Origin: Chthoniobacter flavus Ellin428
GTDB lineage: Bacteria; Verrucomicrobiota; Verrucomicrobiia; Chthoniobacterales; Chthoniobacteraceae
DNA length: 64,000 nucleotides
Reading direction: 5' to 3'
Assembly (NCBI RefSeq): GCF_000173075.1
Contig: NZ_ABVL01000008.1
Location: 124,001 to 188,000, forward strand
Both the position numbers and the translations under genes were made by a program. The notes under the pieces are model-generated. The model was given only the letters and a program-made list of their open reading frames with translations, did not search any database and was not told the DNA's origin. Numbering within the stretch: the stretch's first letter is position 1; the number at the start of each line of letters is the position of its first letter. Positions 19,399-61,833 of this stretch are shown in pieces.

Positions 19399-19405
19399 GG
19401 GAAAT

Positions 19406-22633: not shown

Positions 22634-22636
22634 AGT

Positions 22637-28674: not shown

Positions 28675-28679
28675 GGAAT

Positions 28680-38165: not shown

Positions 38166-38249
38166 GGCTGGAGGCACAGTTGATCATCTCCATTCCTCCG
38201 GCGGAGGAATGGACCGTCCACCCAGAGCCGGGTGGTGAATGGCTTTGAA

Positions 38250-44672: not shown

Positions 44673-47153
44673 ATGACTCGTCCCGAACATACGATATCTC
44701 GACTGAAATCTCCCTGCCTTCGCCGCTCCGGCGCGTTGCTGTTCACTCTTGCCGCCGGACTTTTCCTCCACGCGGATGCGCTAAATGCGGCCGCGCCCAC
44801 CATGGGGATCAATCTGACCAACGACCGCCTCTTTGCGGATGCCATGCGCGGAGCGCGTCCCAATTGGGACAGCCCCACCCATTACGGGGACGGCACTGGA
44901 GTCGTGGGCCTCGATGGCTGGCCGGCCGCCGATGCCTCCATCATGCTCTGGGAAGGAGTCGGCAACAACGACGGCAATTACTTCATTCAGTTCAATGGAA
45001 AGGCCAAGCTTGGCGCCAGCTTCGGCTATGCTTCTTTCTCGAATCAGATGTGGGATCCGGCCAGCAATACGACCACGGCGTGGATGACCGTCACCTCCAA
45101 CGGCGTGCAAAACTTTTCGCTCGTCTTCACCAATACCCAGCGGACGGCCTCCAGCGCGGTCGGCACCGGCGTCACCAATGTCAAAGTCATGCGCCCGCTA
45201 ACCGAAGGTTCCACCACTGCGCTCGCTGCGACCGAGATGTTTACCGACCAGGCGGAAAACTTGGTGAGCAAATTCAAGCTCATCCGGTTCATGGATCTGA
45301 CCGGGACGAATGGGAACACGCAAACTGCCTGGACCGATCGGATGCTGCCCTCGACGCGGAAGCAGAGCCCGCTCGCCTGGGAGCACGTCGTCCGGCTTTG
45401 CAACGATACCAACTGCGACGCCTATATCAATATCCCCGAGAGGGCGTCGGACGACTACATCACCAAGCTGGCCCAGCTCTTCAAGTATGGGAGCGACGGC
45501 GTCAATCCCTACACCTCCCCGCAGGCCAACCCCGTCTATCCCCCGCTGGCCAGCGGTCGCAAAATCTATATCGAAAATAGCAACGAGGTTTGGAACGGAA
45601 GATTCGGACAGTTCAACGACAACCTCAACGCGGTGAAGGCGGATATCGCGGCGAACAACGCGGAATACGCCATCCTGAATTTCGACAACCTGCCCATGAC
45701 CGGCCCGGACGCGAGTGGAAACTATCTCAACCAATACCCGCTCTGCTGGCGCCGGATCGCCAAACGCCTGGCCGATATCAGCAACCTCTGGCGCGGAGTT
45801 TGGGGCGATGGCGCCATGATGACCACCATCCGGCCGATCTTCGAGTTCCAGTACGCCAACGCGCAGAACACCGCCGTGGACGGCATGGATATCATGGACC
45901 GTTATTACGACAACGGTGATAACATCGCCCATGTGGCCGTCCCGCGGCCGGTCTCTTACTATTTCTGGGGCGCCGGTGGGGCCACTTACTTTGGTGCCGG
46001 AGATAACAACGCGACCACCATCGACGGGATCTTCGCCTCGGGAGTTCCCTACAGCAGCTTCGCCACTACCATCGCCGGGGAGACCATCTGGCCGAAAGCC
46101 TACGGTCTGCAGGCCATCGCTTACGAGGGCGGCTGGTCCGTGCAGCAGTCTGGTGGCAACGGCTACTCGAATCCGGCGGGCTCTCCCGCCTGCGAATCCA
46201 AGTACGATCCGCGCGCCAAACAGGCCGAAATCGACGCGCAGAACATCTTCAACCAGTGCGGCGGAGACGTGAATGTCTTCTACGCCTCCTCGGGAGTTCG
46301 CACATGGATCTGGGGCATGACCGATAACATCTTCACCCTGGCCTCGCCGCTCTACGACGCCATCGACGCGCTCAACGCCAGCACCCAGGCCGCGCCCACC
46401 GTCGGCGCGGCGGTGCCGGCCACGGGAATTTCCTCCGGCAATACCACCGGCCAATTCACCGGCCGCCGGAACTTCTTCATCCGCGCGACCGCTGACGGTT
46501 TGTATAATGTGACCGCGAACATCGCGGGCCCGACGACCGTGAAGGTCTACGTCGACGGACGGTGCATGGGCACCCGCAGCCTGACGAGCACCGGCACCAT
46601 CGCCCCGGTGGCCTGCGGTCTCACCGCGGGGTTGCATACCGTCTCCTTCCGCAATGTCTCCACCTACACCTCGGCGTTCACTTCGTTCGCGGTCAATTCC
46701 GGCGCGGCCGGTCTCACCATCCAATACGAAGCGGAGGATCTGGTGATTCCCTCCGAGACCAGCCCCGCCTGGCGGATCTTTTCCGACCCGGCGGCCAGCG
46801 CCGGCTATGCCACCGTCCTCGACGCCACTGCGCCCGGCGATTTCATGACCCTGCTGGTGCCCAATGTCGCTGCGACCGTCTATCGCATTAAACTCGGCAT
46901 CAAAGAATTCAGCAGCCGCGGAATTTCCCAGATGTCCATCGGCCGCGCGGATAACTTCGCGGGAACGGCCGCGAATGTCGGCGCGCCCTTCGATGAATAT
47001 CTCAACGGGATTTCCTTCACCGAAATCGACCTGGGCACATGGTCGCCGGGAACCACCAGCGACAAATGGTTCCAATTCAAGATCACCGGGAAAGATGCGG
47101 CCAGCGCCGGCTATTCCGCCGCGTTTGATTACATCAAACTGATCCCGCAGTAA
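44673..47153 (+). CDS. Secreted GH-A-like glycoside hydrolase, 826 aa
   Basis: A secreted protein: a signal peptide (SGALLFTLAAGLFLHADALNAAA) is followed by about 560 residues of catalytic (TIM-barrel-like) domain and two C-terminal beta domains. The first of these, near 575-670, resembles a carbohydrate-binding fold (FFIRATADGLYNVTANIAGPTTVKVYVDG). The other (about 680-826) starts IQYEAEDLVIPSE and contains GISFTEIDLGTW. Candidate catalytic residues are Glu305 in IYIENSNEVWN (acid/base, after Asn-Ser-Asn as in clan GH-A) and Glu485 in IAYEGGWSV (nucleophile). It is a paralogue of the 58291 gene. The exact glycoside hydrolase family and substrate are not known to me. Confidence 0.8.
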   Translation: MTRPEHTISRLKSPCLRRSGALLFTLAAGLFLHADALNAAAPTMGINLTNDRLFADAMRGARPNWDSPTHYGDGTGVVGLDGWPAADASIMLWEGVGNNDGNYFIQFNGKAKLGASFGYASFSNQMWDPASNTTTAWMTVTSNGVQNFSLVFTNTQRTASSAVGTGVTNVKVMRPLTEGSTTALAATEMFTDQAENLVSKFKLIRFMDLTGTNGNTQTAWTDRMLPSTRKQSPLAWEHVVRLCNDTNCDAYINIPERASDDYITKLAQLFKYGSDGVNPYTSPQANPVYPPLASGRKIYIENSNEVWNGRFGQFNDNLNAVKADIAANNAEYAILNFDNLPMTGPDASGNYLNQYPLCWRRIAKRLADISNLWRGVWGDGAMMTTIRPIFEFQYANAQNTAVDGMDIMDRYYDNGDNIAHVAVPRPVSYYFWGAGGATYFGAGDNNATTIDGIFASGVPYSSFATTIAGETIWPKAYGLQAIAYEGGWSVQQSGGNGYSNPAGSPACESKYDPRAKQAEIDAQNIFNQCGGDVNVFYASSGVRTWIWGMTDNIFTLASPLYDAIDALNASTQAAPTVGAAVPATGISSGNTTGQFTGRRNFFIRATADGLYNVTANIAGPTTVKVYVDGRCMGTRSLTSTGTIAPVACGLTAGLHTVSFRNVSTYTSAFTSFAVNSGAAGLTIQYEAEDLVIPSETSPAWRIFSDPAASAGYATVLDATAPGDFMTLLVPNVAATVYRIKLGIKEFSSRGISQMSIGRADNFAGTAANVGAPFDEYLNGISFTEIDLGTWSPGTTSDKWFQFKITGKDAASAGYSAAFDYIKLIPQ

Positions 47154-47179
47154 GCCTATCCAGTCGATCGCTCGACGAC

Positions 47180-47224
47180 AGCCAGGGCAATGCCCAGTGC
47201 ATTGCCCTGGCTTTGCGTTTTTTG
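47180..47224 (+). terminator. Rho-independent terminator
   Basis: A perfect 13-bp stem AGCCAGGGCAATG / CATTGCCCTGGCT with a seven-base loop (CCCAGTG) is followed by TTTGCGTTTTTTG. It begins 27 bp after the hydrolase stop codon on the same strand, as expected for its terminator. Confidence 0.9.
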
Positions 47225-47354
47225 TGCAGATGTTCGTCGATCGAATTCGCGACCGCTTCCGGAACAATTACCTGATGCCGCGATTATCTTTCCGGGACGA
47301 TTCCTTAATGACGACGATCGTCAGAACTTCACGTCTCGATCCATCGCCCCGCGC

Positions 47355-47972
47355 TTAATGTTGTTCGAAAATCTCCACGTTGGGCGGCGGGTGATAGAGG
47401 GTGCCGCCAACGGCGTAGTGCGTTTGGCGTTCGCGGCTGCGCTGGTCGAACTGCGTGGCCCGCGCCGTCTGCCCATCCTTCACCGTGATGCGCGTGAAGT
47501 AATACTTGAAATGGCTCACATATAATCGCTGGCTGATCCCCTGGTCGTCCGTGGACACATAAGTTGTAATCCACGGCATGTCACCCTTCAGGTAATACTC
47601 TCCGGCAGGTATTCCGCGGAAGGAGAAGTTACCGTCGCCATCCGTGTTCACGGCCCATTCGTATTGGCTCAGACGCTTGTCCGCGGCCCGGAGATTTTCC
47701 CCATTGATAAAGCGCCGTTGGACATTCTCCGTGGTGTAGGCATTCACCGGCACGAGAAGGATCTGCTGGAAATGCGGGTAAATCGTTCCGTGATTCTGCG
47801 TGTCCACCGAGACCTGCCCCGTGACGACTCCCGTCCCCTTGCGCGTCATGCCGCCGAAGTCCGCCGGATTGAAGGCCGTTTGCCGCCCCACCACGCAGCC
47901 GCTCCACATCCAGACCGTAGCACCAAGCAACAGAGAACAGATCGCCACCCGAGAGAGACGAGGCAGATTCAT
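47355..47972 (-). CDS. Lipoprotein, carboxypeptidase-regulatory-like
   Basis: A 205-aa probable lipoprotein: the signal MNLPRLSRVAICSLLLGATVWMWSGC has a lipobox (Trp-Ser-Gly-Cys) at residues 23-26. The mature protein contains one beta-sandwich-like region with GVVTGQVSVDTQNHG and WAVNTDGDGNFSFRGIPAGEYYLKGDMPWITTYVSTDD, in which the strand-loop GNFSFRGIPAGEYYL is the signature of carboxypeptidase regulatory-like/CNA-B-type folds. A fragment of the same module (GDMRWLATYVSTDD) remains at 40318-40395. It is probably anchored to a membrane. The short C-terminus ends YHPPPNVEIFEQH. Confidence 0.8.
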   Translation of the reverse strand: MNLPRLSRVAICSLLLGATVWMWSGCVVGRQTAFNPADFGGMTRKGTGVVTGQVSVDTQNHGTIYPHFQQILLVPVNAYTTENVQRRFINGENLRAADKRLSQYEWAVNTDGDGNFSFRGIPAGEYYLKGDMPWITTYVSTDDQGISQRLYVSHFKYYFTRITVKDGQTARATQFDQRSRERQTHYAVGGTLYHPPPNVEIFEQH

Positions 47973-48496
47973 AATTAAAGAATGTTTCCGCCCTTGGACG
48001 CCGAACCCGCCGCGGTTGTTCATCGCGGAAGGGTTGCTCTGAGATGGGTGATTAAGATAAAGCGCGGAGGCAAAACTCCGGGGAGCGCACTTGTCCCGAG
48101 TGCTGGCGAAGGCGTCCCCGCCTTCGCGGACTTTTCAGGGCATTGCGCGGAGGCTACCCGCCCCTTGGGTTCCAGAGACGGAAAAAGTTCGTTTCGGCGA
48201 GACGCCTCTTCGGCTTCGCTCAGGGCAGGCGAAACCAGCACTCGAGACCGAAGAGGCGGAGGGGAATAGCGGAGGCTGGTTGATGGGCGAGCGTGCGCTC
48301 CCCGAAAGTTCTGCCGCCATACGCTCACTGACATCCATCATCTCACGACTGACGGAGCAGCCTGGTACGCCGTGCGCGAACCCGATCACCGTGAGCAAAC
48401 AGGTCACCCAACCGTACCACGGAGTCACCCGATACCCCTGTTACGAAAGCCTCAATTTATTTCACGGTCTCTCAAACCCAGGCGTCTCCGCATCGA
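47973..48496. repeat. Gene-free region with repeat element
   Basis: No gene is supported in this 524-bp gap; codon-like frames here are shadows. From about 48175 to 48310 it carries an element that matches 57465-57535 in blocks (GGCGAGACGCC, ACCAGCACTCG, GAGTGCGCTCCCC). It also holds the block GAGGCGGAGGGGAAT with GATGGGCGAG (48248-48287), which recurs in both units of the tandem repeat at 62249-62684. The rest may be the promoter region of the lipoprotein gene. Confidence 0.65.
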
Positions 48497-48880
48497 TCAT
48501 GGCTCATAATAGCGATTCCCGGCGAAGTAGCATTCTTCGGTGTGAATCGCCACGGTCTGTTGCACTCCGGTATCATCCGGAAACGTAGCGTAGAGGATGA
48601 TCTGCAAGCGCAGCGTATCGCGGTAGCCGTGCCCCTGCGTCCAGATCCCTTCATATTGATGCGTCAACGAAAGATCGAGCGTTTGGGTGCTGAACGTATA
48701 GACCGGTTCCCCCGGACGGGCGATTTGCTTCGGGGTGAAATTCTGAACCGTGGCTTGCCGGTCGCCCAGTTTTTGAGTCACGGGATCGAAATCCCATTCG
48801 AATAGCCCGGTAACAGTGCAGTTCTCCGATTGAAAGAGCGTCGGCGATGCGGCGAAAATGACAGTCCTCGAGTTGTTCAT
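48497..48880 (-). CDS. Hypothetical protein
   Basis: A 127-aa protein without a signal peptide or known domain. Beta-strand-like segments dominate: NCTVTGLFEWDFDPVTQKLGDRQATVQNFTPKQ, VYTFSTQTLDLSLTHQYEGIWTQGHGYRDTLRLQIILYATFPDDTG and TVAIHTEECYFAGNRYYEP, which suggests a small beta-sandwich. The start ATG 48880 has an AGAGAGA stretch just upstream, and the sequence is of normal composition, so it is probably real. Its role is unknown. Confidence 0.7.
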   Translation of the reverse strand: MNNSRTVIFAASPTLFQSENCTVTGLFEWDFDPVTQKLGDRQATVQNFTPKQIARPGEPVYTFSTQTLDLSLTHQYEGIWTQGHGYRDTLRLQIILYATFPDDTGVQQTVAIHTEECYFAGNRYYEP

Positions 48881-48997
48881 AGCGCTCTCTCTTCTAACGT
48901 CTGCCCCCTTTTGCGGGCGAGAGTATTCAGCGGAGGCCTCCTTTGCCTACCCGCCATGTTAGAGTAAGGGCATAGGAGTCAGGCATCATGCCCTCGG

Positions 48998-50122
48998 TCA
49001 GCCGGCCTTGGCCGGCAAAGGATACGCGAGCGCTGGGAATGGCACGTGGCTCCGGCCACTTTCGGCCGCGGCTTGCGCGAGCAGCGTTGCCTGGGAGACA
49101 TGCAACGATTCCGCGGTCGTGCGCAGCGGGGCTTTGCCTTCGGTAAGCAAGGCGATGAAGTCCTTGAAGGGATGCGGCGATTCCGCCCGCAACCCCTTGG
49201 CGTCGAGATGACGCTCCGCCGCGCCGGAGGGCCGGAGCGTAAATCCCCCTTGATCGCCGAACACGGCGTCGCCCTTGGTGCCCACCACGTTGCATTTCCA
49301 ACCGCCCGGATGGCCGGCCGGCGAGAAGTAATCGACGTGGCCAAAAATCGGCGCCCCGCCCTGGAGTTGGAACATCGCGTCACCGGTGGTCTCAAACTCC
49401 GGTTGTTGCGGAAACCCGACCTTGGCGCGCGCGCCCGAGAGCACTTCGACATACGGCCGGCGGGTGATCCACTGGACGAAGTCCACCCCGTGGCCCATGA
49501 GATCGTTGATGATGCCGCCGTGCATGCCCGGCACGAAATACCATTTCGGCCGCCGTTCGTAGCTCAGCGAATGCGGGCCGGCAAAGCTGCAGCCGACGAT
49601 CTCGCCGATCTCCCCCTGCTGCAGCAACTCCGCGCCCTTTGCCCAAAAATGCCGAAGGCTGAAATCCACGTGCACCTCGAGATGCTTCGCGGCGGCGACC
49701 TTGGCGATCCGCTCCAGCTCCTCCCCGTGCGTGCATAGCGGCTTGTCGGAAAAGACGTGCTTGCCGGCCTCCAGCGCGGCGATCGCCGCCTCGCCGCGAC
49801 GCCCGTATTCCTCGGCCACCACGACCACGTCGAGCGGCTCCGCTTCGAGCATCTGGTGGTAATTGGCGTACTTCACCGGAATCCCGGAAATCCGTTCGCC
49901 CTCCTTGCGGTTCTGCTCATCGTCATCCGCGATGGCGGCGATGGTCACCCGAGGATCGGCGGCCGCCAGTTTCATGACCGCGTAGACATGGCCATGCTTG
50001 AGCCCGGAAAAGCCGATGCGCAGGCGCGTTTCCGGAGCGGCCGCGCCAAGGCAGGCGCCAGCCAGGGTGAGCGAGGAGCCGACGAGGAATTCGCGCCGGT
50101 GAAGGGAGGTGTGGGGAGTCAT
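48998..50122 (-). CDS. Tat-exported Gfo/Idh/MocA-family oxidoreductase
   Basis: A protein of about 374 aa. MTPHTSLHRREFLVGSSLTLAGACLGAAAPE is a twin-arginine signal (Arg-Arg-Glu-Phe-Leu). Next comes the NAD(P)-binding domain (RIGFSGLKHGHVYAVMKLAAADPRVTIAAIADDDEQ, Gly-x-x-x-Gly), then VVVAEEYGRRGEAAIAALEAGKHVFSDKPLCTHGEELERI with the conserved Glu-Lys-Pro-like motif as Asp-Lys-Pro, and a C-terminal alpha/beta domain containing GGIINDLMGHGVDFVQWI. It probably oxidises or epimerises a free sugar or inositol-like compound in the periplasm. It stands alone here. Confidence 0.88.
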   Translation of the reverse strand: MTPHTSLHRREFLVGSSLTLAGACLGAAAPETRLRIGFSGLKHGHVYAVMKLAAADPRVTIAAIADDDEQNRKEGERISGIPVKYANYHQMLEAEPLDVVVVAEEYGRRGEAAIAALEAGKHVFSDKPLCTHGEELERIAKVAAAKHLEVHVDFSLRHFWAKGAELLQQGEIGEIVGCSFAGPHSLSYERRPKWYFVPGMHGGIINDLMGHGVDFVQWITRRPYVEVLSGARAKVGFPQQPEFETTGDAMFQLQGGAPIFGHVDYFSPAGHPGGWKCNVVGTKGDAVFGDQGGFTLRPSGAAERHLDAKGLRAESPHPFKDFIALLTEGKAPLRTTAESLHVSQATLLAQAAAESGRSHVPFPALAYPLPAKAG

Positions 50123-50245
50123 GGGGGAAGTGGAATGGTCACTCAATCGGTGGCGGGCTCCAAGCCCGGATTCGGTGTTGTGATCCAGCATTACCAACTC
50201 GTCTATGCAACCCGGGCTGGTTTCTCGACGGCAACGAAAGACCGG

Positions 50246-51166
50246 CTACCGTTCGGAGGATGCGATTACGCAGCGGAAGCTGGTGCTGTCATATATCGAA
50301 ATAGGTTGTGTGCTGTAGCGACGGGACGACAGCAGATCCCCCCTTTCGCTGGTGTGCCAGCTGGCGCCGCGCAACACCCGGGCCGAACGACGTTCGTCGG
50401 CAAAATCTCCACACCATTCGACGACATTGCCGCCCAGATCAAAGAGGCCGAAGCGGTTCGCCAGGAAGGAGCCGACTGGCGCTGTCTCCACGAAATTATC
50501 CCGGTAACCCACCAGCGGATTCTTGATCCAGGCATATTTGCCGGCCGCTTTGACCGGTTGCAGCTCTTCACCGGCGAAATTGCCGGCCCTTGCCGGCGGG
50601 GGCCATTGGGTGCCCCACGGAAACGCATCGGTAAGCTTACGATCCTTTTCCATGGGCAGCTTAGCCGCATCCTCCCGCTCCCCGATGCCCACTGCGCAAC
50701 TCCATTCATGGTCACTGGGCAGGCGATAACACCAGCCCGTCGTGAGGCGGTGTGCCGCCAGTTCCCGGAGAGTCAGCCACTGGCAGAAAAGCGTTGCGTT
50801 AGTCCAGCTCACATTCACCGCCGGATGAGTCGGTCCTTGCTGGAAATCGGGCTTCATCCACGGAGTCTTAATCTCTTGGTGGTAGGCCTCGTAGTCCTCC
50901 ACGCGCGTATCCCACACGCTGAATAACACGAGCTGCCCATCGCTCGGCCCGCCTTGAATCGGCACGGGGACGAATTTCATACCCAAGGAGTTAACAAATG
51001 GCTTTTCCTTCGTCACAGGACCCAGCAGCCAGGCAGAACTAGCGGGCGGGCGATCTTTATGCGGTTCCCTTTTGTGCAAAATCAGCATTGCCCCCATGGC
51101 CAGCACGACGGCCGCCATCACAACTAACAAGACTGATTTCCTCGGCGGCGATGGTGTGGCCTGCAT
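50246..51166 (-). CDS. Formylglycine-generating enzyme-like (SUMF1/FGE-sulfatase) membrane protein
   Basis: A protein of about 306 aa anchored by an N-terminal hydrophobic helix (KSVLLVVMAAVVLAMGAMLILH). The FGE-sulfatase/sulfatase-modifying factor domain follows: NSLGMKFVPVP, VWDTRVEDYEAYHQE, HPAVNVSWTNATLFCQWLTLRE, YRLPSDHEWSCAVG and LFDLGGNVVEWCGDF, SARVLRGASWHTSE, SSRRYSTQ. The catalytic Cys pair of true FGEs is only partly visible, so it may be a binding or non-catalytic relative. No sulfatase gene is close by. Start ATG 51166 has AGAGGA 11 bases ahead; it is divergent from the Ser/Thr kinase. Confidence 0.8.
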   Translation of the reverse strand: MQATPSPPRKSVLLVVMAAVVLAMGAMLILHKREPHKDRPPASSAWLLGPVTKEKPFVNSLGMKFVPVPIQGGPSDGQLVLFSVWDTRVEDYEAYHQEIKTPWMKPDFQQGPTHPAVNVSWTNATLFCQWLTLRELAAHRLTTGWCYRLPSDHEWSCAVGIGEREDAAKLPMEKDRKLTDAFPWGTQWPPPARAGNFAGEELQPVKAAGKYAWIKNPLVGYRDNFVETAPVGSFLANRFGLFDLGGNVVEWCGDFADERRSARVLRGASWHTSERGDLLSSRRYSTQPISIYDSTSFRCVIASSER

Positions 51167-51393
51167 AAGCGTCAATTTCCTCTCGGCCCAAAGAAAGCCG
51201 GAGGGGCAATTTTGGTCAACATTTCGAGAACAGGGGCAGCCGGTATTTGTGCGACCCGGAATTGGACGGCGGCCCTCCATCTCTTCCTCGTTCGGGACCT
51301 GATGTAGCTCCGCGTCATTCCACATTCCACCCGCGCCGCGCCCGCCAAAAATGGTCGCGTTCCCGCCGTCGTTTTGCCTACCCTGCGCCTCCA

Positions 51394-53399
51394 ATGACCC
51401 TCGTCGGGCAAACACTGGGAGAATTCGAAATCCTTGAAGCCCTTGGCCACGGGGGCATGGGTGCCGTCTACAAGGCCAGGCAACTCTCCTTGAAGCGCCT
51501 GGTCGCTTTGAAAACTTTGCAGCCCGCCATGGCCAACGATGCGGCTTATATCGCCCGCTTTCAGCAGGAGGCGATCGCCGCAGCCAGCCTCAGCCATCCA
51601 ATCTCGTCCAGGTTTACTCGGCCGGTCAAAGCGAGGGTCTCTACTGGTTTTCCATGGAATATGTGGAAGGAGAATCGGCCCGGGCCAGGCTGCAAAGCGC
51701 CGGCCGCATCGAGCCGCAGGAAGCCATCACCATCGCCATCTGCGTGGCCACCGCGCTGCAATACGGCTCGCGCAAGGCTTCCCTAATCCACCGCGACATC
51801 AAACCGGACAACATCTTCCTGGCCCGCTCCGGTGAGGTGAAGCTCGGCGATCTCGGGCTGGCCAAAAGCGCCGCGGACAATCAGGGACTCACCTCCACCG
51901 GGCATTCGCTGGGCACGCTCTACTACATCAGCCCCGAACAGGCGCGCGACTCGAAGACCGTGGATTTCCGGGCGGATATCTACAGCCTCGGGTGCACCCT
52001 CTTCGAAATGGTCTCCGGGAGGCCGCCCTTCACTGGGTCCAACGCGGCCGCGATCCTGCTCAAGCATCTCACCGAGCCGGTGCCGAGTTTGCAAGCGGCG
52101 TGGTCGCAATGTCCGCCCGGCCTCTCCGATCTCGTCGGGAAAATGATGCAGAAAGATCCCGGCGATCGGCCGCAGGATTACGCCACGCTGATCAGTGAAT
52201 TGCGACACGCGTATGCCATGCCGGCTGAGCCCGCGCCCGCACCCCCGCCGGTGCGAACCGCACGGGCGGAAGCCGGGCCCGCAGCCGGGCCAGCCGCGTC
52301 ACCGCCAGTCCAGCCCGGATCGAATGAGGTCGGAAGGGCCACCTACGTGATCGACCTCGACCTGGAAGCGTCGGCCGCGCCCGCGCCCGCGTCGGCGCGA
52401 GCCGCGCAACCGCCAATCCAGCCCGGACCGACACCCGATTGCGAGACGCTGCCGGAAACCCGCAGCGAACCGCCACCCGTCACCACCACCGAGGTCGACC
52501 AAGACACACTGCCCGTGCAGCCCAGACCACCGACTGCTGCCGCACCGGCATCTGCCCCGCAGTCCCAGCCGGTCGACGTCAGTGATTTGCGACTCGTCAC
52601 TCCCATCGAGCTCCACCGCGAAACGTCCCCGTCGGCCAGCTCTCTCTTCATCCCCCCAGCGACCCCGGCGCGCCAATCACCCGACGCGGCCCCAACGCGA
52701 AAATCCCTTCCCTGGGGCAAAATCATCCTCGTTCTCCTTTTCCTGGCCACCGGCTGGTTCTACCTGACTCACCGCAGCCCAACGCCCTCCGCCTTCGACA
52801 CCGAAGACTCCGCAGATTCTCCGAACCCGAACAGTGTCTGGCGGGACTGGGTGCTGGAAAGTCACCGCAATGGCTATTTCCTCTACAATCGGGAATTTGC
52901 GGATCACACCGTCGGCAATCACACCGAAGTGGTCTTCCAGAAACGCGCCTCCGCCAATTCCCAGGATACCTTCCGCAACGGGAAAATCCGCGTGCGCTGC
53001 GTCATCCCGCCCCCAAAACTCCCGGCCCAATACGTGCAATTTTACGTGCGCATGGCCCCGGATGCCAAAGGGGTGCTCCGGCGTTACGAAGCCTATATCA
53101 CGCACGATGCTGTCGTCTTCGCGCTGAACGATTCGGCGCAGGGCGTCCACGAAATCACCCATTGGCCCGTGCCCGCGACCCCGGACCGGCCGCTCGACAT
53201 CGTCATGGAAATCGAGGCGAGAAACAATACCTTCACCGTCTCCCTCAACCGCATGGTGGTTGGCACCGTTCGGGATGACACCATCCCCGGTGCGGGAACC
53301 TTCGGCCTCGACGGCCCTGCCGAGACGCGCCTCTCCACCCTGGCCTTTCTCAATCTCGATCCCCCCGCTCTGCCCATCCCTTTCCCAGTGACGAAGTAA
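51394..53399 (+). CDS. Membrane Ser/Thr protein kinase with LamG-like sensor domain, frameshifted
   Basis: The kinase domain begins FEILEALGHGGMGAVYKARQLSLKRLVALKTLQPAM (Gly-rich loop and Lys of VALK). One missing base near 51598-51599, just after AASLSHP, shifts the frame; adding it gives LVQVYSAGQSEGLYWFSMEYVEGESARARL. The catalytic loop HRDIKPDN and LGDLGLAKSA (DLG instead of DFG) follow, then GTLYYISPEQARDSKTVDFRADIYSLG. A Pro/Ala-rich linker, one membrane helix (GKIILVLLFLATGWFYLTH) and a beta-rich C-terminal domain (about 210 residues, FYVRMAPDAKGVLRRYEAYI...) complete a protein of about 668 aa. It probably senses a ligand outside and phosphorylates cytoplasmic targets. Confidence 0.85.
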
Positions 53400-53525: not shown

Positions 53526-53787
53526 GAAGTGGCAGGCTGTCCCGGAGGGACAAAGGAATTTAGCCGGGGGTAGAGCGAGCTTGCGAGCGACACCCCCGGA
53601 ACACGTTTCCAACACGAAAGCGCCCCGGAGGTGGCGCCGGAATTCTTCGCCAGCAGAAGATTCCTCCGCCCCTTCAGGGCGGGCCCGTGGAGGGACGCAA
53701 TTCCGGTGGCTGCGCCTGTTCGCCTGAAGCTCACAGGCTTGCACACCGGCTAAATTCCGTTGTCCCTCCGGGACAGCTTGCCGCTTC
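53526..53787. repeat. Long inverted repeat with GGAATTTAGCCGG core
   Basis: The left arm (53526-53567) and the reverse complement of the right arm (53746-53787) match at about 39 of 42 positions. Each holds a perfect TGTCCC-GGA-GGGACA palindrome followed by GGAATTTAGCCGG. Between the arms are about 178 bp of GC-rich filler with CGCCGGAATTCTTCGCC-like sub-repeats. The same GGAATTTAGCCGG core is in the 38825-38893 element. It could fold into a very large hairpin or be a mobile non-autonomous element. Confidence 0.8.
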
Positions 53788-53834
53788 GACCAGCCCAACT
53801 GAATCGATGCCAACTGAGATGCGCGTAAAGATCA

Positions 53835-53973
53835 GGGTCAGCGTCCCCAGCACGGTCGGGTAGGCGGTGATCGGCACGGTGTCCTGCTCGCGGGTGTCGA
53901 TGAGGATCGTCGGGGCGAATTCCGCGCTCATTTTTCGCAGGGATCGAGAGTTGATTTTGGGGTCCATCCCCAA
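53835..53973 (-). pseudogene. Remnant of an ERCC4-type nuclease gene
   Basis: On the minus strand this frame reads MSAEFAPTILIDTREQDTVPITAYPTVLGTLT, which has the Asp-Thr-Arg-Glu-Gln signature of ERCC4/XPF nuclease domains and a Tyr-Pro-Thr-Val-x-Gly-Thr-Leu run as in phage- or plasmid-type members. The usual following motif with the catalytic Glu-Arg-Lys is missing: the frame continues as unrelated sequence into the inverted repeat at 53526-53787. It appears to be a truncated gene whose 3' part was replaced by the repeat. Confidence 0.45.
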
Positions 53974-54018
53974 AGCCCGGGCAGACCCCGGTGAAGACCC
54001 CGAGGAGACAGGCGGTCC

Positions 54019-54056
54019 GTCCGACCGGCCCTATATAAATATAGGGGCGGTCAGAC
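54019..54056. promoter_or_regulatory. Imperfect 17-bp palindrome with a TATA centre
   Basis: GTCCGACCGGCCCTATA, a four-base spacer TAAA, and TATAGGGGCGGTCAGAC pair at 15 of 17 positions. It is about 105 bp upstream of the ERCC4-like remnant, and GTGAAGAC direct repeats lie beside it (three in 54097-54124 and one near 53990). It could be an old operator or phage-type repeat; no regulator that would bind it is visible. Confidence 0.4.
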
Positions 54057-54197
54057 GAACCTCTCCACTGTCTTTGCGCCCGTTCACGGGGGGGCGTGAA
54101 GACCGTGAAGACGGCCGTGAAGACCTCTCTTGGTGCCACGTCGAATAGGCTCTGTTCGTGCAGAGAGATGTGAACTTCTCTCGTTTTTAAAGTGTTC
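54057..54197. other. Gene-free spacer with GTGAAGAC direct repeats
   Basis: Three copies of GTGAAGAC with short spacers occur between 54097 and 54124. No gene is supported between here and the GH16 stop codon at 54198. Confidence 0.45.
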
Positions 54198-56132
54198 TCA
54201 TTTTGCCTTCGTCGGCGCTGCGAGAGTCGGTTCCGTCGATTTCACCCCGTCCGCCGCGGAGGCCAGATCCTTCCGCTGCCAGCACCGGACGTAGTCGATA
54301 ACGAACTCATCCGGAAGCTGCGCGTCATCCAGGTCGTTGTTATCCCATCCACCCATCACGTGGGTGAACATCAGGTCCGATGGCACATCGGAAATGCGCG
54401 GCGATTCCCAGCGCGCCACCACCGAGCCATTGCAGTAAATCACGGCCTTCCCCGGAGTCCATAGAAGGCCGGCCGTGATGAACCCATCCTGGTCCGCGCC
54501 GGTATAAATCGTCGAAGAGCCGGTCTGTTTGTGCTCCTTCTCGTAACCGTCCCAATGGAAAGCGATGTTGAAGCGGTGCACGCCCCAGCGCGAAAGGAAC
54601 TCCATCACATCGAACTCCATGGCGCCTTGTCCGGTGCTGGCCCGCAGCCCTTGCGCGCCGGAATCGAGGCCACGGTCCGGCATGAGCCACATGGCCGGCC
54701 ATAATCCGGGCGCTTTCGGCAGTTTCATCCGCGCCTCGAAATACCCATACCGTTGCACCCACTTTCCGTAGGTATCCAGGAAGCCGGTGGCATAATCCGT
54801 CTCTGCCCCATTGGGATCGTCGTTGTGCCGGCCACGCTTCTTCGCATAGCGCAGCTTCGCCAGGCCGTTTTCCACGATCACGTTTTCTTTGCTGAAATGG
54901 CTCGTCTTGTCCCAGTAGTTCGCCGTGTAGACGTTCCACTTGGTCAGGTCGATGTCGTGGCCATTGAATTCCTCGTCGAAAGTTTGTGTCCATTCGCCCT
55001 CCACCGGCGGGCGCTTGCCGAGCCAGTCGGGAACAGTCACCACCGGCGCTTCGGCCACGATCGATTCCACTTCAAACGATTGCGCCCCCGCAGCGGCATC
55101 GCCCGCCAGGGTCACGGCGGTCACCGCGTCGCTGATGAATTGCGTCCCAGAGCCCTTCGTTCCATTCCACTCCGTCTTCGCCGAATTTTGGATGCCAGTC
55201 CACGGCGTGGAAGGGATGAAAGACACCACGACCTCGCCGGAAGCACCGGGCGCGAGCGGCCCTGGCGTGGCCGCCTTTTCCGTGGAACCGGGCTCACTCT
55301 CCACCCACACCGTCAGGGCTCCCGGAGTGGCGCCGGTATTCTTCACCTTCACCCGCACTTGGGTCGCGTCGCGCAGGTCCCATTTCCCTCGCGCCGGTTT
55401 GATCCGCACCGACTGATCCTTGCCCGAAAAGCCGATCTTCCCGGTGCTGCCATCTTCGGCCACCGCTGATTCAGCCCCGTTTTGGGCGATCATCTGGGCT
55501 GCGGTCACTTTTACCGGAGGGCCGAAAAGAACGCCGTTTTCCGGCTTCACCCGGATGGATGCCGGGTCAACGGGCGGCTGTTCGCCAGCGGGTCCGGCAG
55601 CCAACAGGCTCTCGAGACGGAACGATTGCACCTCGGTGGATTTGGTCGCGAAGATGAGCACTTGCGTCACCGCCGCCGGCTGGAGCTTGTAGGCCGGCTT
55701 GTGCCCGTAGGCGTAGCCGAAGATGGTCTTCACCGTGATTGTTTCGCCAGGCTTCAGGTAGGCGATTTCCGTGTCGTTCCCACTCGCGTTATCGACGCGC
55801 AGATTGAGCGCCAGCGGCTTTTCCCCCAGATTCACCAAGCGCGCTTCGATGTGGCCCCACTGGGACAGATCGATGACGCCACCGGACGGCGGCTTGATGC
55901 TCACGCCCGGATACTCTTCCCGTCCCGGCTGGATCGTCACCACCACGCCGTTTTCCGTTCCTCGCGCTGTCGTCACCTGCCCCGAGCTCGGCCTCAGCTG
56001 TGACTCCACTCCCGCCTTCATCTCGAGCAAAGCCTTTGGCGCTTCATCCGCCAGAACCGCGGCGGCAAAAATCGAGAACAGGCACGTGAAAACCGCTGCG
56101 CCGCTGCAATAGGACTTCGAGTGGATCGACAT
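54198..56132 (-). CDS. Secreted family 16 glycoside hydrolase, 644 aa
   Basis: A signal peptide (MSIHSKSYCSGAAVFTCLFSIFAAAVLADEA) is followed by beta-rich regions (about 30-375), probably two carbohydrate-binding modules, and a C-terminal GH16 catalytic domain (about 380-620): WTQTFDEEFNGHDIDLTKWNVYTANYW, YATGFLDTYGKWVQRYGYFEARMKLP, then the active-site MEFDVMEFLSRWGVHRFNIAFHWDGYEK. In it, Glu506 and Glu511 with Asp508 form the family's Glu-x-Asp-x-x-Glu triad. It continues with GLLWTPGKAVIYCNGSVVARWE and FVIDYVRCWQRK. It likely cuts a beta-1,3 or beta-1,4 glucan, carrageenan-like or laminarin-type polysaccharide; the exact linkage is uncertain. Confidence 0.9.
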   Translation of the reverse strand: MSIHSKSYCSGAAVFTCLFSIFAAAVLADEAPKALLEMKAGVESQLRPSSGQVTTARGTENGVVVTIQPGREEYPGVSIKPPSGGVIDLSQWGHIEARLVNLGEKPLALNLRVDNASGNDTEIAYLKPGETITVKTIFGYAYGHKPAYKLQPAAVTQVLIFATKSTEVQSFRLESLLAAGPAGEQPPVDPASIRVKPENGVLFGPPVKVTAAQMIAQNGAESAVAEDGSTGKIGFSGKDQSVRIKPARGKWDLRDATQVRVKVKNTGATPGALTVWVESEPGSTEKAATPGPLAPGASGEVVVSFIPSTPWTGIQNSAKTEWNGTKGSGTQFISDAVTAVTLAGDAAAGAQSFEVESIVAEAPVVTVPDWLGKRPPVEGEWTQTFDEEFNGHDIDLTKWNVYTANYWDKTSHFSKENVIVENGLAKLRYAKKRGRHNDDPNGAETDYATGFLDTYGKWVQRYGYFEARMKLPKAPGLWPAMWLMPDRGLDSGAQGLRASTGQGAMEFDVMEFLSRWGVHRFNIAFHWDGYEKEHKQTGSSTIYTGADQDGFITAGLLWTPGKAVIYCNGSVVARWESPRISDVPSDLMFTHVMGGWDNNDLDDAQLPDEFVIDYVRCWQRKDLASAADGVKSTEPTLAAPTKAK

Positions 56133-56241
56133 TGGGTAAGGCTACACGCAAGGCCGGAATAGCAAGCCCTCAGAAGCCGTGCTGCTCTTTGTCTTTCTTT
56201 CTAAATCGCATGAGCTAACCTGCAGTATCTCCTCTCGGCTT

Positions 56242-56790
56242 ATGTCCTTCTGGTCCAACCTGAGAAACCTCTCTAAATCGAAATCGGATTGCGTGATCGG
56301 CGGCGTGTGTGGCGGACTTGGCGCCCACACCCCCATCCCCGCCTGGATGTGGGCGGGGCCGCCTTTCCTCGTCGCCCTGCTCGTCTTCGGCACCGGTGGA
56401 CTGGTTTACATCATCCTCTGGATCGCCTTGCCGGAAGAAAAGCCGCAGCCGCCCCCCCGCCGGAAGCGGGAAAGTGGATGGTTGAGACTGGAGCGAAGCG
56501 ACGGGTCCGCGGTGCCGTGGGGACAATTGATAGTTGATAGTCCGCCGCGCAGCCGCAGGAGCATCCGTTCCGCGGAGTTGTGCGAAGATTTGCTGCCAGC
56601 GCAGGCCGTTTTGGTATTTTCCTCTCGCTCCCGTGGGGGCTTTGGGAACGCCATTGCCGGGCAATTCCATTGCGTGGAAGGCGGCCGGATTCTCAGCTCT
56701 CGATCGCGAACGATCCTCCCCCATCCGCGAAACAGAGTTTCCCCGCTAAATGAGCATTCCCAAAGCCTCACTTTGGGAACGAGAGAATGA
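56242..56790 (+). CDS. PspC-domain membrane protein whose end runs into a repeat
   Basis: The N-terminal half is a classical PspC domain: SFWSNLRNLSKSKSDCVIGGVCGGLGAHTPIPAWMWAGPPFLVALLVFGTGGLVYIILWIALPEEK, with a single membrane pass. PspC proteins regulate the phage-shock/envelope stress response. After about residue 72 the coding frame enters the interspersed repeat at 56526-56787 and reads through to a TGA at 56788-56790, giving a low-complexity tail (residues about 95-182) that is likely not native. The gene may originally have ended earlier. Start ATG 56242, 182 aa. Confidence 0.6.
   Translation: MSFWSNLRNLSKSKSDCVIGGVCGGLGAHTPIPAWMWAGPPFLVALLVFGTGGLVYIILWIALPEEKPQPPPRRKRESGWLRLERSDGSAVPWGQLIVDSPPRSRRSIRSAELCEDLLPAQAVLVFSSRSRGGFGNAIAGQFHCVEGGRILSSRSRTILPHPRNRVSPLNEHSQSLTLGTRE
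56526..56787 (+). repeat. Interspersed repeat, family A, copy 1
   Basis: The block starts with short TTGATAG-type units (56527-56541). It goes on with CCGTTCCGCGGAGTTG (56566-56581), then a 'GCCAGCGCAGGC..TTGGTATT' part, and ends in CATTCCCAAAGCCTCACTTTG. The last part, TTCCCAAAG-CCTCA-CTTTGGGAA (56757-56779), is a perfect 9-bp hairpin. Copies 2 and 3 are at 57226-57446 and 58183-58246. The copy lies partly inside the PspC reading frame. Confidence 0.75.
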
Positions 56791-56843
56791 GAGAATTCCA
56801 ACGGCTTGACGCGGGACGGGGTCTCCGAGAGGTTGTTCCCAGG

Positions 56844-57182
56844 ATGAAGACCCTTCTCGCCGCCATTGCCCTCGTCCTGTGTCTGTGCTTTTCGGCCAAG
56901 GCCGAGACCAGTCCCAGGAATCACGATCTCTCGTATCACCATTACTCCCACGGTAACTACCACTACTATTCCACCCGCCACTACTGGCACGGACACTGGT
57001 ACGGCCCGGGATACTACGGACCCACTGTTTTTGTCGGCTCGTCTTACTACTGGAGCGGCTACGGACCGGGCGTCACTGTCGTCGCCCCGGGGCCGATCTA
57101 CTATCCGCCGGGCGGAGTTTGGCGGCACGGCCACTATTGGTATCACGGCCATTACTGGCACGGGACCTACCACCATCATTGA
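56844..57182 (+). CDS. Small secreted His/Tyr/Gly-rich protein
   Basis: A protein of about 112 aa: signal MKTLLAAIALVLCLCFSAKA, then a mature part made of His, Tyr, Gly, Trp and Ser: HHYSHGNYHYYSTRHYWHGHWYGPGYYGPTVFVGSSYYWSGYGPGVTVVAPGPIYYPPGGVWRHGHYWYHGHYWHGTYHHH. Roughly one residue in six is His, so it may bind metal ions or form part of an extracellular matrix or sheath. No family can be named. GAGAGG precedes ATG 56844 by 11 bases. It lies between two copies of a repeat. Confidence 0.75.
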   Translation: MKTLLAAIALVLCLCFSAKAETSPRNHDLSYHHYSHGNYHYYSTRHYWHGHWYGPGYYGPTVFVGSSYYWSGYGPGVTVVAPGPIYYPPGGVWRHGHYWYHGHYWHGTYHHH

Positions 57183-57225
57183 TACCGCTCCCGATATCCG
57201 TCGCGCGGCGGGTCAACGCCTGCTA

Positions 57226-57446
57226 GTTGAGGGTTGAGGGTTGAGAGTTGAGAGTCCACCGTGCGACCCCTTTTTTGTCCGCTCCGCGGAGTTGCGCGAG
57301 GGTTTGGCGCCAGCGCTGGCTATCTTGGTATTGACTTTCGCCCCGCTGAGGGCTGAACGAGCAACGTTCAGTCCTGCCTCAACCCGCGAAACGGAGTTTC
57401 CCCACAAAATGGGCATTCCCAAAGCCCCACTTTGGGAACGAGAGGA
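57226..57446 (+). repeat. Interspersed repeat, family A, copy 2
   Basis: After four GTTGAG(G/A) heptamers (57226-57256), the sequence repeats copy 1: CCGCTCCGCGGAGTTG (57279-57294), GCCAGCGCTGGC..TTGGTATT, CGCGAAACGGAGTTTCCCC and the hairpin TTCCCAAAG-CCCCA-CTTTGGGAA (57416-57438). About 60% of the bases align with copy 1. Confidence 0.75.
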
Positions 57447-57548
57447 GAAGGAGGGGCGGAGAAAGTTCGTCTCGGCGAGACGCCGAGACCAGCACTCGCG
57501 AGTGCGCTCCCCGGAAAGCTCCGCGCCACCCATCTCCCCGTCGGGAGA
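57447..57548. repeat. GAGACGCC-type element
   Basis: The stretch 57465-57535 has the blocks TTCGTCTCGGCGAGACGCCG, ACCAGCACTCGCGAGTGC and GCTCCCCGGAAAGCTCCG, matching blocks at about 48187-48300. TCTCGGCGAGA and CACTCGCGAGTG are small perfect palindromes. No gene is supported before the DUF3828-like gene's stop at 57549. Confidence 0.6.
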
Positions 57549-58079
57549 TCACTTAACGGGGTATTTCTTCCGATCCTTGGCCAGTTGGCGGAGCTCTTCC
57601 AATAAATTCCCCTTTTCGGAATTCCAGAAATTGATGAACACCCAGTGCCCGTTCACCGATTTCACCTCGGGGATGACTTGCGGCTTTTTGTCCTTTTTTC
57701 CGTCCAGGAAGTGATAGACCTCCACCCGGTAGGCGCCGTTTTTTTCCGTGACATTCCCGACCACGGAGCGGTCCACCGTCTCCTGGCTGTTGAGAAAGGG
57801 GTCAAAGTCGAGGCCCACGAGCTCGCCCGGGTTTTTCGCGGCCGCCGCGCTATCCTCCTTCAGCGCCTTCGTCAGCTCCGGGCTGAAATCCGCAGCTCTC
57901 TTTTTCAACGCCACATCGCTCGATGCCTCGTGCCGGTCATGTTTGCTCAAGGGCACATACCAATTGTAAAAATCCTGGACGAACTTGGCGGGCGAATCCG
58001 CGGCCTGAAGCGGAGCCGCACCCGCGCTCCAGGCAAAGAGCGCCAGTGCCGCAAGGAGGAGGATTTTCAAAGAGTTCAT
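57549..58079 (-). CDS. Secreted DUF3828-like protein
   Basis: A protein of about 176 aa. It has a signal peptide (MNSLKILLLAALALFAWSAGAAPLQA), then a mature part with PAKFVQDFYNWYVPL as first helix, and a beta-strand half with VGLDFDPFLNSQETVDRSVVGNVTEKNGAYRVEVYHFLDGKKDKKPQVIPEVKSVNGHWVFINFWN. The Asp-Pro-Phe-Leu-Asn-Ser-Gln segment and the alpha/beta layout resemble DUF3828 (a small exported family of unknown role). Start ATG 58079. It is between repeats and has no operon partners. Confidence 0.8.
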   Translation of the reverse strand: MNSLKILLLAALALFAWSAGAAPLQAADSPAKFVQDFYNWYVPLSKHDRHEASSDVALKKRAADFSPELTKALKEDSAAAAKNPGELVGLDFDPFLNSQETVDRSVVGNVTEKNGAYRVEVYHFLDGKKDKKPQVIPEVKSVNGHWVFINFWNSEKGNLLEELRQLAKDRKKYPVK

Positions 58080-58182
58080 AGTGATAAGAGGACCGTGGGA
58101 AGGATGACAGGCGCGCGCGTGTTTTACAACGATCATCGAAGAGCTTGCGTTCCGGACTGATCTCAAACAACCCACCCCGGTC

Positions 58183-58246
58183 CACGAAACGGAGTTTCCC
58201 CACAAAGCGGGCATTCCCAAAGCCTCACTTTGGGAACGAGAGAAAA
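58183..58246 (+). repeat. Interspersed repeat, family A, copy 3 (short)
   Basis: Only the terminal part of the family A repeat is present: ACGAAACGGAGTTTCCCC, then GGGCATTCCCAAAG-CCTCA-CTTTGGGAACGAG with the same perfect 9-bp hairpin (58214-58236). It is placed downstream of the large hydrolase gene's stop codon and may act as a terminator for it. Confidence 0.75.
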
Positions 58247-58290
58247 GGGAGACTGGAGTTCAGTCTCCCTTTTCGTTCGATGAGGTCGCG

Positions 58291-61200
58291 TTAGTGAACC
58301 ACGCCAGTGAGTTGGAAGTCAACGAGCTGGATCTCCTTGAACCCATACACATTGTCATAGAAGTAGATCCTAATTTCCGTCGGCTGCGTGATGTTGCTAT
58401 ACGCCGACGTGATCGGCACATAGTAAGTGAAGGTGGTCGGGCTTCCCAGGCCGGTTGGATATCGTGTCGAGGAGTCATAGACCGCCGAGCTCACGGCAGG
58501 CTGGGCAGGCAATCCACCCACACCCACAAACAAGGCCGTCTGGCGGGCCGACTGGCTGTTATTCAGCGGGTTCAGCGTCCATTGAATGGCCGCCCCCCGC
58601 AGATCGAGCGAGTGTCCGGTGGGCGGCGTGACCGTCACGGTCAGATACTGTTTTTGGGTAACGGCGTCCGACAGTAATTCCGGCGTCGCGCTATTCGGTG
58701 TCCCCGTCGAGGGATACGGATTCATGAGCGAGACGCGGTAGGCATTTGGATAATTCGCATCCGAAACGCGCGCATAAATGCCGGAATTGCTATGGATGAA
58801 TGTCCAACCCGTATACCCCAGCCCCGACGCCAGCGTGCTCGTCCACGTCCAGGGAGTTGGAGTGGTGAGAGGCGTCGCCACATTGTTGCCAGCACCCGCA
58901 AAGCTGGATTGCACAATCAACGTGTCGCTTCCCTTCGGACGGACCGCGATCTGAAAGGTATCCGAAGCCGATGCCCCCGAATTATCGGTCACCGAAACCG
59001 TGATCGTGTTGTTTCCCACCGGCAAAGAGGGGGAGATGGCATTGGCGGTCGTCGATTGGACCACTCCGTTGATGATCCATTGCGTCGAAACAATCGTGCC
59101 GTCGTAGTCCACCGATCCCGCCGTCGACAGGGGCACCACGACCGATCCCGCGCCGGTCGTATCCACCACCGCCTCCGGAACGTTGACGATCGCCCCGCCC
59201 GAGGTGCTCGTCACATCGAGCAGCGGCGGAATGTTCGAATCCGAATTCGGGAAGTTCGTTTGATACGTGACCAACGCATCGTACTTCGGATGGGTGGGCT
59301 GGTTGACATATTCGATGACGCCCCAGGAACCGTACTTACTCCATCCGCCGATATGGTCGAAGTTACAAAATTCCGCCACTCCGGCAGCCTGGAGTTCTCC
59401 CAGATACTCCGTATAGAGCGCTCCCATGGAAGGATCGCGATTGGCTGCCTCCAGGTCTCCGGTTAACGCGGTGTTGTTCACGTTGGCATAAGTAGCCACC
59501 AAACCCTGTCCACCCTCATAACAGTTGAGATTGACCCCGTGGGTATTTGCGATGGTTTTGAGACCGTTGATGGTGGTGAGGATATTGCCTTCCACATCGG
59601 CCCTCGCGTCGGCGATAATCTGGGGAGTGGTGGCCGTATTGACGGTGCCATCCGTGCTGACGTAGGTCGGCACGAGGGAATTCGCCACCGAGCCCCCAAA
59701 ATAGGGAGCGACCGCCAGAGCGTCGGGATATTGAGTCCGCGCTTCCGGGGCGAGAATGCCGGCGTTAAACGCCGACAGCCGGTTCGTGGCATTGCCCGTG
59801 GAAAACTGGCTGCCCATCACGCGCACCAAACGCTTGGTGGCGTCGGCGCCCCATTCGTCATAGAACCACTGCCAGACATTGGCCGATTGATACGACGCAT
59901 AGTAATCCCCGTATTTACCGGCAGGAAACCCAAGTGCCTGGCCGTGGCTCTGACACCAGTTATATTGCGCGCTAAACCCGCTATTCCAGGTTTCGTTCGA
60001 ATACTCGATATAGACCTTCAGGTTGGAATTGAGTCCCGGCCAGACCAGGCTGGAGAGAGGATCGACTCCCGGCCGGTAGGGCGTGCCGTCCGCTTTCGAG
60101 CCGTTGTGCAGGACGAGAGCCAGATTTTGCACATAATCCTGCGTCGCTTGATGCGGGACATTCACCCAGATGTTTTCATTCAACAGATTGGCGATCGCGA
60201 TTTGATATTCCAACGCCACGCCGGTCACCTGGCTTTGCGTGTAAGAAGTAGGCAACGTCCGGTCCGCCCAGTTCACGATGGGACTCCCGTTTGTCGCCCC
60301 CCAATCCATCATCCGCAAAGTGGCGAAATTATGGAGAGTCGCATAGAAATCAGGATTGAAAGGCGCCGTGATCCGATTGACGGTGTCCCCCCCGAATCCC
60401 GGAGTGAATGCCGAGGGGCTGAGAAACTCAATGTTTCGCAGATAATCTCCGGTCGAATTAGGATCGGAAGCATACAGCGCAAAATAGATATTCGATCCCG
60501 CCGAGGTCGCAGGATTGACAGTAATGGCAGGGCTGTCCCAGTAGCGCGTCACCCCGTCGGTGTCCAGGGGGAGGGAGGTGATGGCCGTTCCGGCAGGGTT
60601 ATTACTGCCCGGCACCGTTGGCCCAAAATAGGTCGTGAAAGCATTCGTCCCATCGGAATTGATGGCGTGAATGGAAAACGAGCCCGTTCCGCGGAATCTC
60701 AGCCGGTAGCGTCCCGATTCATAGGCGATAACAATGCTGTGAACGTATTGCTGGCTGGATATCGCGTTGGAGCTATACGCGGGACGTGGATCCGTTTGTG
60801 TTCCCGAGTAAGGCCCCGGAATCAGCGTTTGCGTGAAGGGCAACTTGGTCGGCCAGCCGTTGCTGTCGAGAGTCAGCCCGTAGCCGTTCAGCGCGGTGGC
60901 CCAAGGGCCGGAGTAAATGGTGTTCGAATTGGCCGTCAACCACGTACTCGTATATTTGAACACGTCGAGAAAGGGATGAGACGTGGTATAGTAGGAGACG
61001 CCTCCCAGATTCATGCTCAGTTTCATGACGGGCGTGCAATAAAGGCCGGTCGCGCTGAAAGTATCGAAGGCATACAAGCCCGTGTAATTGCGCGAGCCGC
61101 GCCCAATCCATCCTACCGCCTGCACATCGCCGAAGGTCTGCGCCGCGTAGACCAGCCCGCTCTGGGGGATATCAAAATTCGTGCCCGTCAGCGTGATGGG

Positions 61201-61833
61201 CGCCCAGCGAAAACCGGCGGTACTGTTGTTATTGAAATTGGTCAGGGTAAAGGTTCCCGTGGCCGCCGCTTTGGCTTCCGAAACGTAATAGGTCGAACCG
61301 TTCAGAATGATGAACCGCGTTTCCTCGGCATCGCCTCCCGTGATATGGCTGTCATCCGTGATATGCACCGAAAGCGTGCTGCTCGAGTCGAACGTGTCGC
61401 TGTACGAAGGTTGGTTGCCGGGGAAGTCACCTCGCTTCCACAGGTAGACCATATTGACGTTATTAATGTTGGTGCTGGACCCTGCATTGCTCATGACAAA
61501 AACCTTGGGCGCATTTGGCCATCCCGGAGGATTGTTGTTATGGATGCGGGCATAGGGTGCACTGCCGAGAGTGCCGACGCTGACCACATTAATGCCTCCA
61601 AAAATCTGGGCGGTGGTGGCCGTGGCGGGAACCAAAGGGGTAGTCAGGCTCGGATCAAAGTTCCACCGCCCGGTATTCGTCCCATTACTGTAGGAAATGG
61701 GCAGAGTTAGATAGGCTCCGCCATTGATCGTCGCGTTCGCCGCGTTAAAGTCGACGAACGTTGCCGGGGTTGCCGCCATAAGTGAAGCTACGGCCAGAAG
61801 CGACATGGCGAGTAGGGTAGCGAATTTGAGCAT
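58291..61833 (-). CDS. Secreted GH-A-like glycoside hydrolase, 1180 aa
   Basis: After a signal peptide (MLKFATLLAMSLLAVASLMAATPA) comes an N-terminal beta-rich region of about 350 residues. The catalytic domain, paralogous to the 44673 gene, is at about 540-870: NFATLRMMDWGATNGSPIVNWADRTLPTSYT, NIWVNVPHQATQDYVQNLALVL, VYIEYSNETWNSGF (Glu614, acid/base candidate), GGSVANSLVP and LNCYEGGQGLV (Glu773, nucleophile candidate). A PKD/He_PIG-like stretch (DYDGTIVSTQWIINGVVQSTTANA) follows near 920-1020, and a C-terminal jelly-roll-like module of about 170 residues ends the protein. ATG 61833 has AAAGGA at a good distance. It probably degrades a plant or microbial polysaccharide; the substrate is unknown. 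Confidence 0.82.
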   Translation of the reverse strand: MLKFATLLAMSLLAVASLMAATPATFVDFNAANATINGGAYLTLPISYSNGTNTGRWNFDPSLTTPLVPATATTAQIFGGINVVSVGTLGSAPYARIHNNNPPGWPNAPKVFVMSNAGSSTNINNVNMVYLWKRGDFPGNQPSYSDTFDSSSTLSVHITDDSHITGGDAEETRFIILNGSTYYVSEAKAAATGTFTLTNFNNNSTAGFRWAPITLTGTNFDIPQSGLVYAAQTFGDVQAVGWIGRGSRNYTGLYAFDTFSATGLYCTPVMKLSMNLGGVSYYTTSHPFLDVFKYTSTWLTANSNTIYSGPWATALNGYGLTLDSNGWPTKLPFTQTLIPGPYSGTQTDPRPAYSSNAISSQQYVHSIVIAYESGRYRLRFRGTGSFSIHAINSDGTNAFTTYFGPTVPGSNNPAGTAITSLPLDTDGVTRYWDSPAITVNPATSAGSNIYFALYASDPNSTGDYLRNIEFLSPSAFTPGFGGDTVNRITAPFNPDFYATLHNFATLRMMDWGATNGSPIVNWADRTLPTSYTQSQVTGVALEYQIAIANLLNENIWVNVPHQATQDYVQNLALVLHNGSKADGTPYRPGVDPLSSLVWPGLNSNLKVYIEYSNETWNSGFSAQYNWCQSHGQALGFPAGKYGDYYASYQSANVWQWFYDEWGADATKRLVRVMGSQFSTGNATNRLSAFNAGILAPEARTQYPDALAVAPYFGGSVANSLVPTYVSTDGTVNTATTPQIIADARADVEGNILTTINGLKTIANTHGVNLNCYEGGQGLVATYANVNNTALTGDLEAANRDPSMGALYTEYLGELQAAGVAEFCNFDHIGGWSKYGSWGVIEYVNQPTHPKYDALVTYQTNFPNSDSNIPPLLDVTSTSGGAIVNVPEAVVDTTGAGSVVVPLSTAGSVDYDGTIVSTQWIINGVVQSTTANAISPSLPVGNNTITVSVTDNSGASASDTFQIAVRPKGSDTLIVQSSFAGAGNNVATPLTTPTPWTWTSTLASGLGYTGWTFIHSNSGIYARVSDANYPNAYRVSLMNPYPSTGTPNSATPELLSDAVTQKQYLTVTVTPPTGHSLDLRGAAIQWTLNPLNNSQSARQTALFVGVGGLPAQPAVSSAVYDSSTRYPTGLGSPTTFTYYVPITSAYSNITQPTEIRIYFYDNVYGFKEIQLVDFQLTGVVH

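Follow-up and report, generated by a model that had tools for sequence, protein, structure and literature searches.

Known glycanases of exopolysaccharide and a putative glycanase pair of C. flavus

The extracellular glycanases of exopolysaccharide (EPS) described so far include ExsH from Sinorhizobium and PlyA and PlyB from Rhizobium (PMC1403797). The promonan cluster of Sphingomonas encodes PrmN (GH10) and PrmQ (GH16), and loss of prmQ alters colony texture (PMC11340318). A different type of enzyme is represented by the GH148 protein EngU, with the motifs INNEN and VTEYN and an insertion after strand 4 of the barrel (PMC5725463).

Two genes of Chthoniobacter flavus, A and B, lie in a 64-kb window (the whole stretch of DNA that was analysed; Table 1). 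They probably (roughly 0.65) represent deeply separated subfamilies of a single, unnamed family of secreted glycanases that retain configuration, are clan GH-A-like in architecture and act on complex microbial polysaccharides. ExsH, PlyA and PlyB are secreted enzymes that cut the EPS of the producing cell, and some members of the present family likewise carry RTX tails and are encoded in EPS clusters. However, the catalytic domain of these enzymes, which are of the GH16 type, is unrelated to that of the family; one Paracoccus protein contains both. PrmN and PrmQ resemble the family as glycosyl hydrolases within a Sphingomonadaceae EPS cluster but belong to known families as annotated in PMC11340318, a comparison made by description. 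By analogy, ExsH, PlyA/PlyB and PrmQ would be the nearest functional counterparts, and none of them is known to be homologous in the catalytic region. GH148 is similar in that it is a GH-A family of glucanases whose barrel also carries an inserted domain, whereas the insertion in the present family is predicted after strand 1 and the motifs are ENSNE and YEGG; this separation is based on the published description of GH148.

Table 1. Coordinates of genes A and B, their predicted parts and the neighbouring glycan-related features in the 64-kb window
Feature	Position	Strand	Basis
Surface-glycan biosynthesis cluster	2503..32201	-	five genes matched by profile, rest read from sequence
Alginate-lyase-like + LamG protein, beside glycan cluster	35367..38177	-	PF05426 E 1.1e-20, PF13385 E 2.4e-28
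Gene A, putative secreted multi-domain glycanase, 826 aa, subfamily I	44673-47153	+	ORF and tree
A catalytic region, residues 41-568	44793..46376	+	alignment, AlphaFold model, Foldseek
A predicted acid/base Glu305 in IYIENSNEVWN, end of barrel strand 4	45585..45587	+	conservation
A predicted nucleophile Glu485 in AYEGG, barrel strand 7	46125..46127	+	conservation
A C-terminal module, residues 696-824, like MiXBM	46758..47144	+	phmmer
GH16-domain protein between A and B	54198..56132	-	PF00722 E 1.1e-9, over cut-off
Gene B, putative secreted multi-domain glycanase, 1180 aa, subfamily II	58291-61833	-	ORF and tree
B C-terminal module, residues 966-1180	58294..58938	-	BLASTP
B PKD-like domain, residues 889-965	58939..59169	-	PDB sequence and Pfam matches
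B catalytic region, residues 269-863, architecture as in A	59245..61029	-	alignment, profiles
B predicted nucleophile Glu773	59515..59517	-	conservation
B predicted acid/base Glu614	59992..59994	-	conservation
B N-terminal accessory module, residues about 23-268	61030..61767	-	extent inferred from core boundary

Homology of A and B and the conserved residues

The open reading frames of A and B were both recovered at the coordinates given in the first-pass annotation. A BLASTP comparison of A with B identifies 37% identity over 126 aa (E 1e-19), and a profile-profile alignment of the two subfamilies extends over 451 columns (E 1.9e-75); the motifs that a first-pass annotation had recognized in both proteins are indeed present, and homology is confirmed. 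In an alignment with ten relatives, the homologous catalytic region amounts to about 530-600 aa. It starts at a GINL-like motif, upstream of the point marked earlier, and includes a region predicted to form a beta-sandwich; the flanking modules differ, as had been stated, outside this shared region. The two motifs first read as acid/base and nucleophile contain E305 and E485 in A and E614 and E773 in B. All 45 diverse relatives have Glu at the predicted acid/base, as do all 42 sequences that cover the predicted nucleophile (the other 3 of the 45 are gapped there); loss of these residues, named beforehand as the observation that would speak against the assignment, is not seen. N304, W307, E301, R205, N244 and Y439 (A numbering) are each conserved in 45/45 sequences. 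E301, four residues before the acid/base and equivalent to E610 in B, is a third invariant Glu.

The N-terminus of A is hydrophobic and looks, by eye, like a signal peptide. The listed open reading frame of B opens at GTG 61995, upstream of the ATG at 61833 that had been taken as the end of the gene; a start at this ATG gives a clear signal-peptide-like stretch. At the sequence level, only the accessory modules of A and B match PDB entries. The C-terminal module of A is similar to MiXBM, a module that binds xanthan (7EHG; E 1e-5 to 3e-6 with phmmer), and residues 889-965 of B are similar to PKD domains of collagenases (E 3e-5), with a further match to the Pfam K319L-like PKD domain that is below the cut-off (E 0.009). 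The N-terminal accessory module of B has no family match in Pfam, and its C-terminal module is weakly similar to the N-terminal module of one relative, L013 (BLASTP E 2e-4). In four other relatives (L002, L012, L046 and L047), the profile match is interrupted after the strand 6 region and resumes at strand 7, and in L002, L012 and L047 the break spans several hundred residues; these breaks suggest further barrel insertions of a second type.

Predicted fold

An AlphaFold2 model of A built from ten sequences (pLDDT 67, pTM 0.73, that is, moderate confidence) shows a (beta/alpha)8 barrel. In this model, strand 1 starts at GINL and is followed by a beta-sandwich (about residues 88-173), placed between beta1 and beta2 by our own reading of the strand order, and then by strands 2-8; the NE motif follows strand 4, and YEGG is part of strand 7. 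N304-E305 is located just after model strand 258-262 and E485 within model strand 440-450 (model numbering plus 40 gives A numbering). Clan GH-A is defined by such a barrel together with Asn-Glu at the end of strand 4 and Glu on strand 7, and all these elements are found in the model, the residues being further supported by their conservation. A Foldseek search of the PDB started with the model of A retrieves mainly clan GH-A enzymes (GH10, GH51, GH1), with the best E of 2.7e-6; these families are the best structural matches, but identity to A is about 10% and the TM-scores are low, mostly 0.3-0.46 for the best matches, and the amylase SusA also appears in the list. These model-based matches support the GH-A-like architecture proposed in the first-pass annotation, as distinct from membership of any one family. 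The model of B predicts the same strand order with low confidence (pLDDT 48) and was left out of the fold search.

Distribution and phylogeny

Two copies are present in C. flavus, and carriers account for 4 of 57 genomes among its near relatives (C. flavus itself counted), 27/384 in its phylum, 26/250 in Sphingomonadaceae and 5/247 in the order of a Bacteroidales metagenome-assembled genome (MAG). The family is also found on alphaproteobacterial, cyanobacterial and Pseudoalteromonas plasmids and spans at least seven phyla (Verrucomicrobiota, Planctomycetota, Chlamydiota, Myxococcota, Bacteroidota, Pseudomonadota and Cyanobacteriota). The initial proposal of a new family "in this lineage" is thus not borne out, given that most near relatives of C. 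flavus lack it. The Phycisphaerales MAG of L003 (G434, 3.2 Mb) encodes nine copies, some of them in open frames of over 2000 aa.

A maximum-likelihood tree consists of two deep groups (split support 100/99): A groups with Planctomycetota, Chlamydiota and Myxococcota, and B with members from the same phylum and from alphaproteobacteria. Because A and B belong to separate deep groups, they are not recent paralogues, and local duplication as the origin of the pair is rejected. A phage origin was rejected as well (phage records give no match, viral contigs no confirmed one and PHROGs none), as was a role in anti-phage defence (no PADLOC match).

Genomic context and candidate substrates

In Sphingomonadaceae, 15 of the 31 copies are located within 25 kb of an EPS priming transferase (PF02397), versus 1.2 expected (P about 6e-14, which is too small a value given that related genomes are treated as independent). 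The corresponding count for Verrucomicrobiota is 0 of 26 copies, A and B among them. On plasmids of Roseobacter, Paracoccus and Thioclava, the gene is found among genes for glycosyltransferases, nucleotide-sugar enzymes or a flippase. RTX repeats are present in the copies from Roseobacter and Paracoccus. One Paracoccus plasmid protein of about 2300 aa (L018:10078-16986), encoded inside a glycan cluster, combines GH16, RTX repeats and the catalytic domain. Some of the neighbours at verrucomicrobial loci are sulfatases, and a GH106-like and a GH16 protein also occur there. In the window itself, the surface-glycan cluster encodes glycosyltransferases, asparagine synthase, a Wzt-type ABC ATPase and a NusG-like protein. 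Inspection by eye reveals GH16 within 10 kb of a copy at two verrucomicrobial loci (the 64-kb window and G154) in addition to the single Paracoccus fusion, too few cases to claim a linkage. The window also contains a DDE transposase (33750-35144, plus strand), in the interval that separates the glycan cluster from the hydrolase region, and a serine/threonine protein kinase gene (51247-53399, plus strand) split over two frames, with the N-terminal lobe in frame 51247-51786 and the remainder from 51654 in another frame; this gene is frameshifted in the assembly, either genuinely or through a sequencing error.

Taken together, the EPS linkage, the glycan-related neighbours, and the glycan cluster, alginate-lyase-like gene and GH16 gene of the window favour the cutting of own or foreign microbial polysaccharides. 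A purely degradative function on plant or algal polysaccharides, without any role in the processing of self EPS, appears rather unlikely: the lack of EPS-transferase linkage in Verrucomicrobiota, the sulfatase and GH106-like neighbours, and the alginate-lyase-like gene and the GH16 gene close to A and B are all compatible with it, but the strong linkage in Sphingomonadaceae and the small number of Bacteroidales carriers are not what it predicts.

Placement among known families

For the catalytic region of A, B and 34 diverse members, Pfam and NCBIfam give no credible match, only single weak unrelated ones, and searches with 12- and 34-member alignments detect no characterised family in these libraries or among PDB sequences. 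Even the 34-member profile at E 10 finds no solved structure like this region among PDB sequences. The match to a characterised family that the first-pass annotation had named as speaking against its proposal is therefore lacking in these libraries, and "unnamed" is used here in the sense that searches of Pfam, NCBIfam and PDB sequences do not find the family. Neither GH5 (PF00150) nor GH10 (PF00331) is matched in Pfam, and hhalign comparison with profiles of sequences gathered from the same class gives probabilities of 0.3-0.5% for GH5 and 1-1.6% for GH10, versus 92% for the control comparison of GH5 with GH10. Given the absence of a profile tie to GH5 or GH10 despite the link between these two, the clan assignment rests on the moderate model and the motif order. 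Annotated relatives are labelled calcium-binding, cadherin-like or hypothetical, and the single one named as a family 16 glycosylhydrolase has a GH16 domain separate from the catalytic domain. A literature search found no report of the motif or of a new GH-A family of this kind.

Many recent GH families have no Pfam model, so that A and B could be divergent members of a CAZy family already named, for which neither a Pfam model nor a solved structure exists, in which case nothing here would be new. The lack of credible matches across 34 diverse members and the labels of the relatives, however, make this quite unlikely, and GH148 differs in motifs and insertion site (PMC5725463). Carbohydrate-binding barrels devoid of catalysis are highly improbable, because, although no member has a known activity, both Glu, together with the Arg, Asn, Tyr and Trp positions, have changed little or not at all among deeply diverged members.

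Proposed function

As secreted retaining glycanases, the family members most likely cleave a complex polysaccharide at internal linkages and retain the configuration. E305/E614, at the end of strand 4, would be the acid/base and E485/E773, on strand 7, the nucleophile, while the MiXBM-like module of A and the PKD-like module of B would anchor the protein to its polymer. A microbial exopolysaccharide or capsule is the most likely natural substrate. Sphingomonadaceae and several other alphaproteobacteria would use the enzymes to cut the polymer of the cell itself (matrix processing); in Verrucomicrobiota, foreign or environmental polymers are probably attacked (scavenging). Of this picture, the homology, the conserved residues, the distribution, the lack of matches in the libraries and the linkage to gene clusters are direct results, and the details of the fold, the retaining mechanism, the endo mode and the substrate are inferred from them. 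The signal-peptide-like N-termini count in favour of this assignment, and the profiles without a GH5/GH10 tie, the low TM-scores and the absence of linkage in Verrucomicrobiota count against it. A more specific scenario, unlikely in its full form, is that of a new clan GH-A family with a sandwich after strand 1, which first served to cut self EPS during export or matrix remodelling and was re-used in Verrucomicrobiota for feeding on the EPS of others.

Annotation based on Pfam and NCBIfam overlooks this widespread family of apparently secreted hydrolases, which is missing from both. The linkage to EPS clusters offers a testable entry to the question of how such polymers are trimmed, and the family is a possible source of matrix-degrading enzymes; its substrate, if found, would found a CAZy family.
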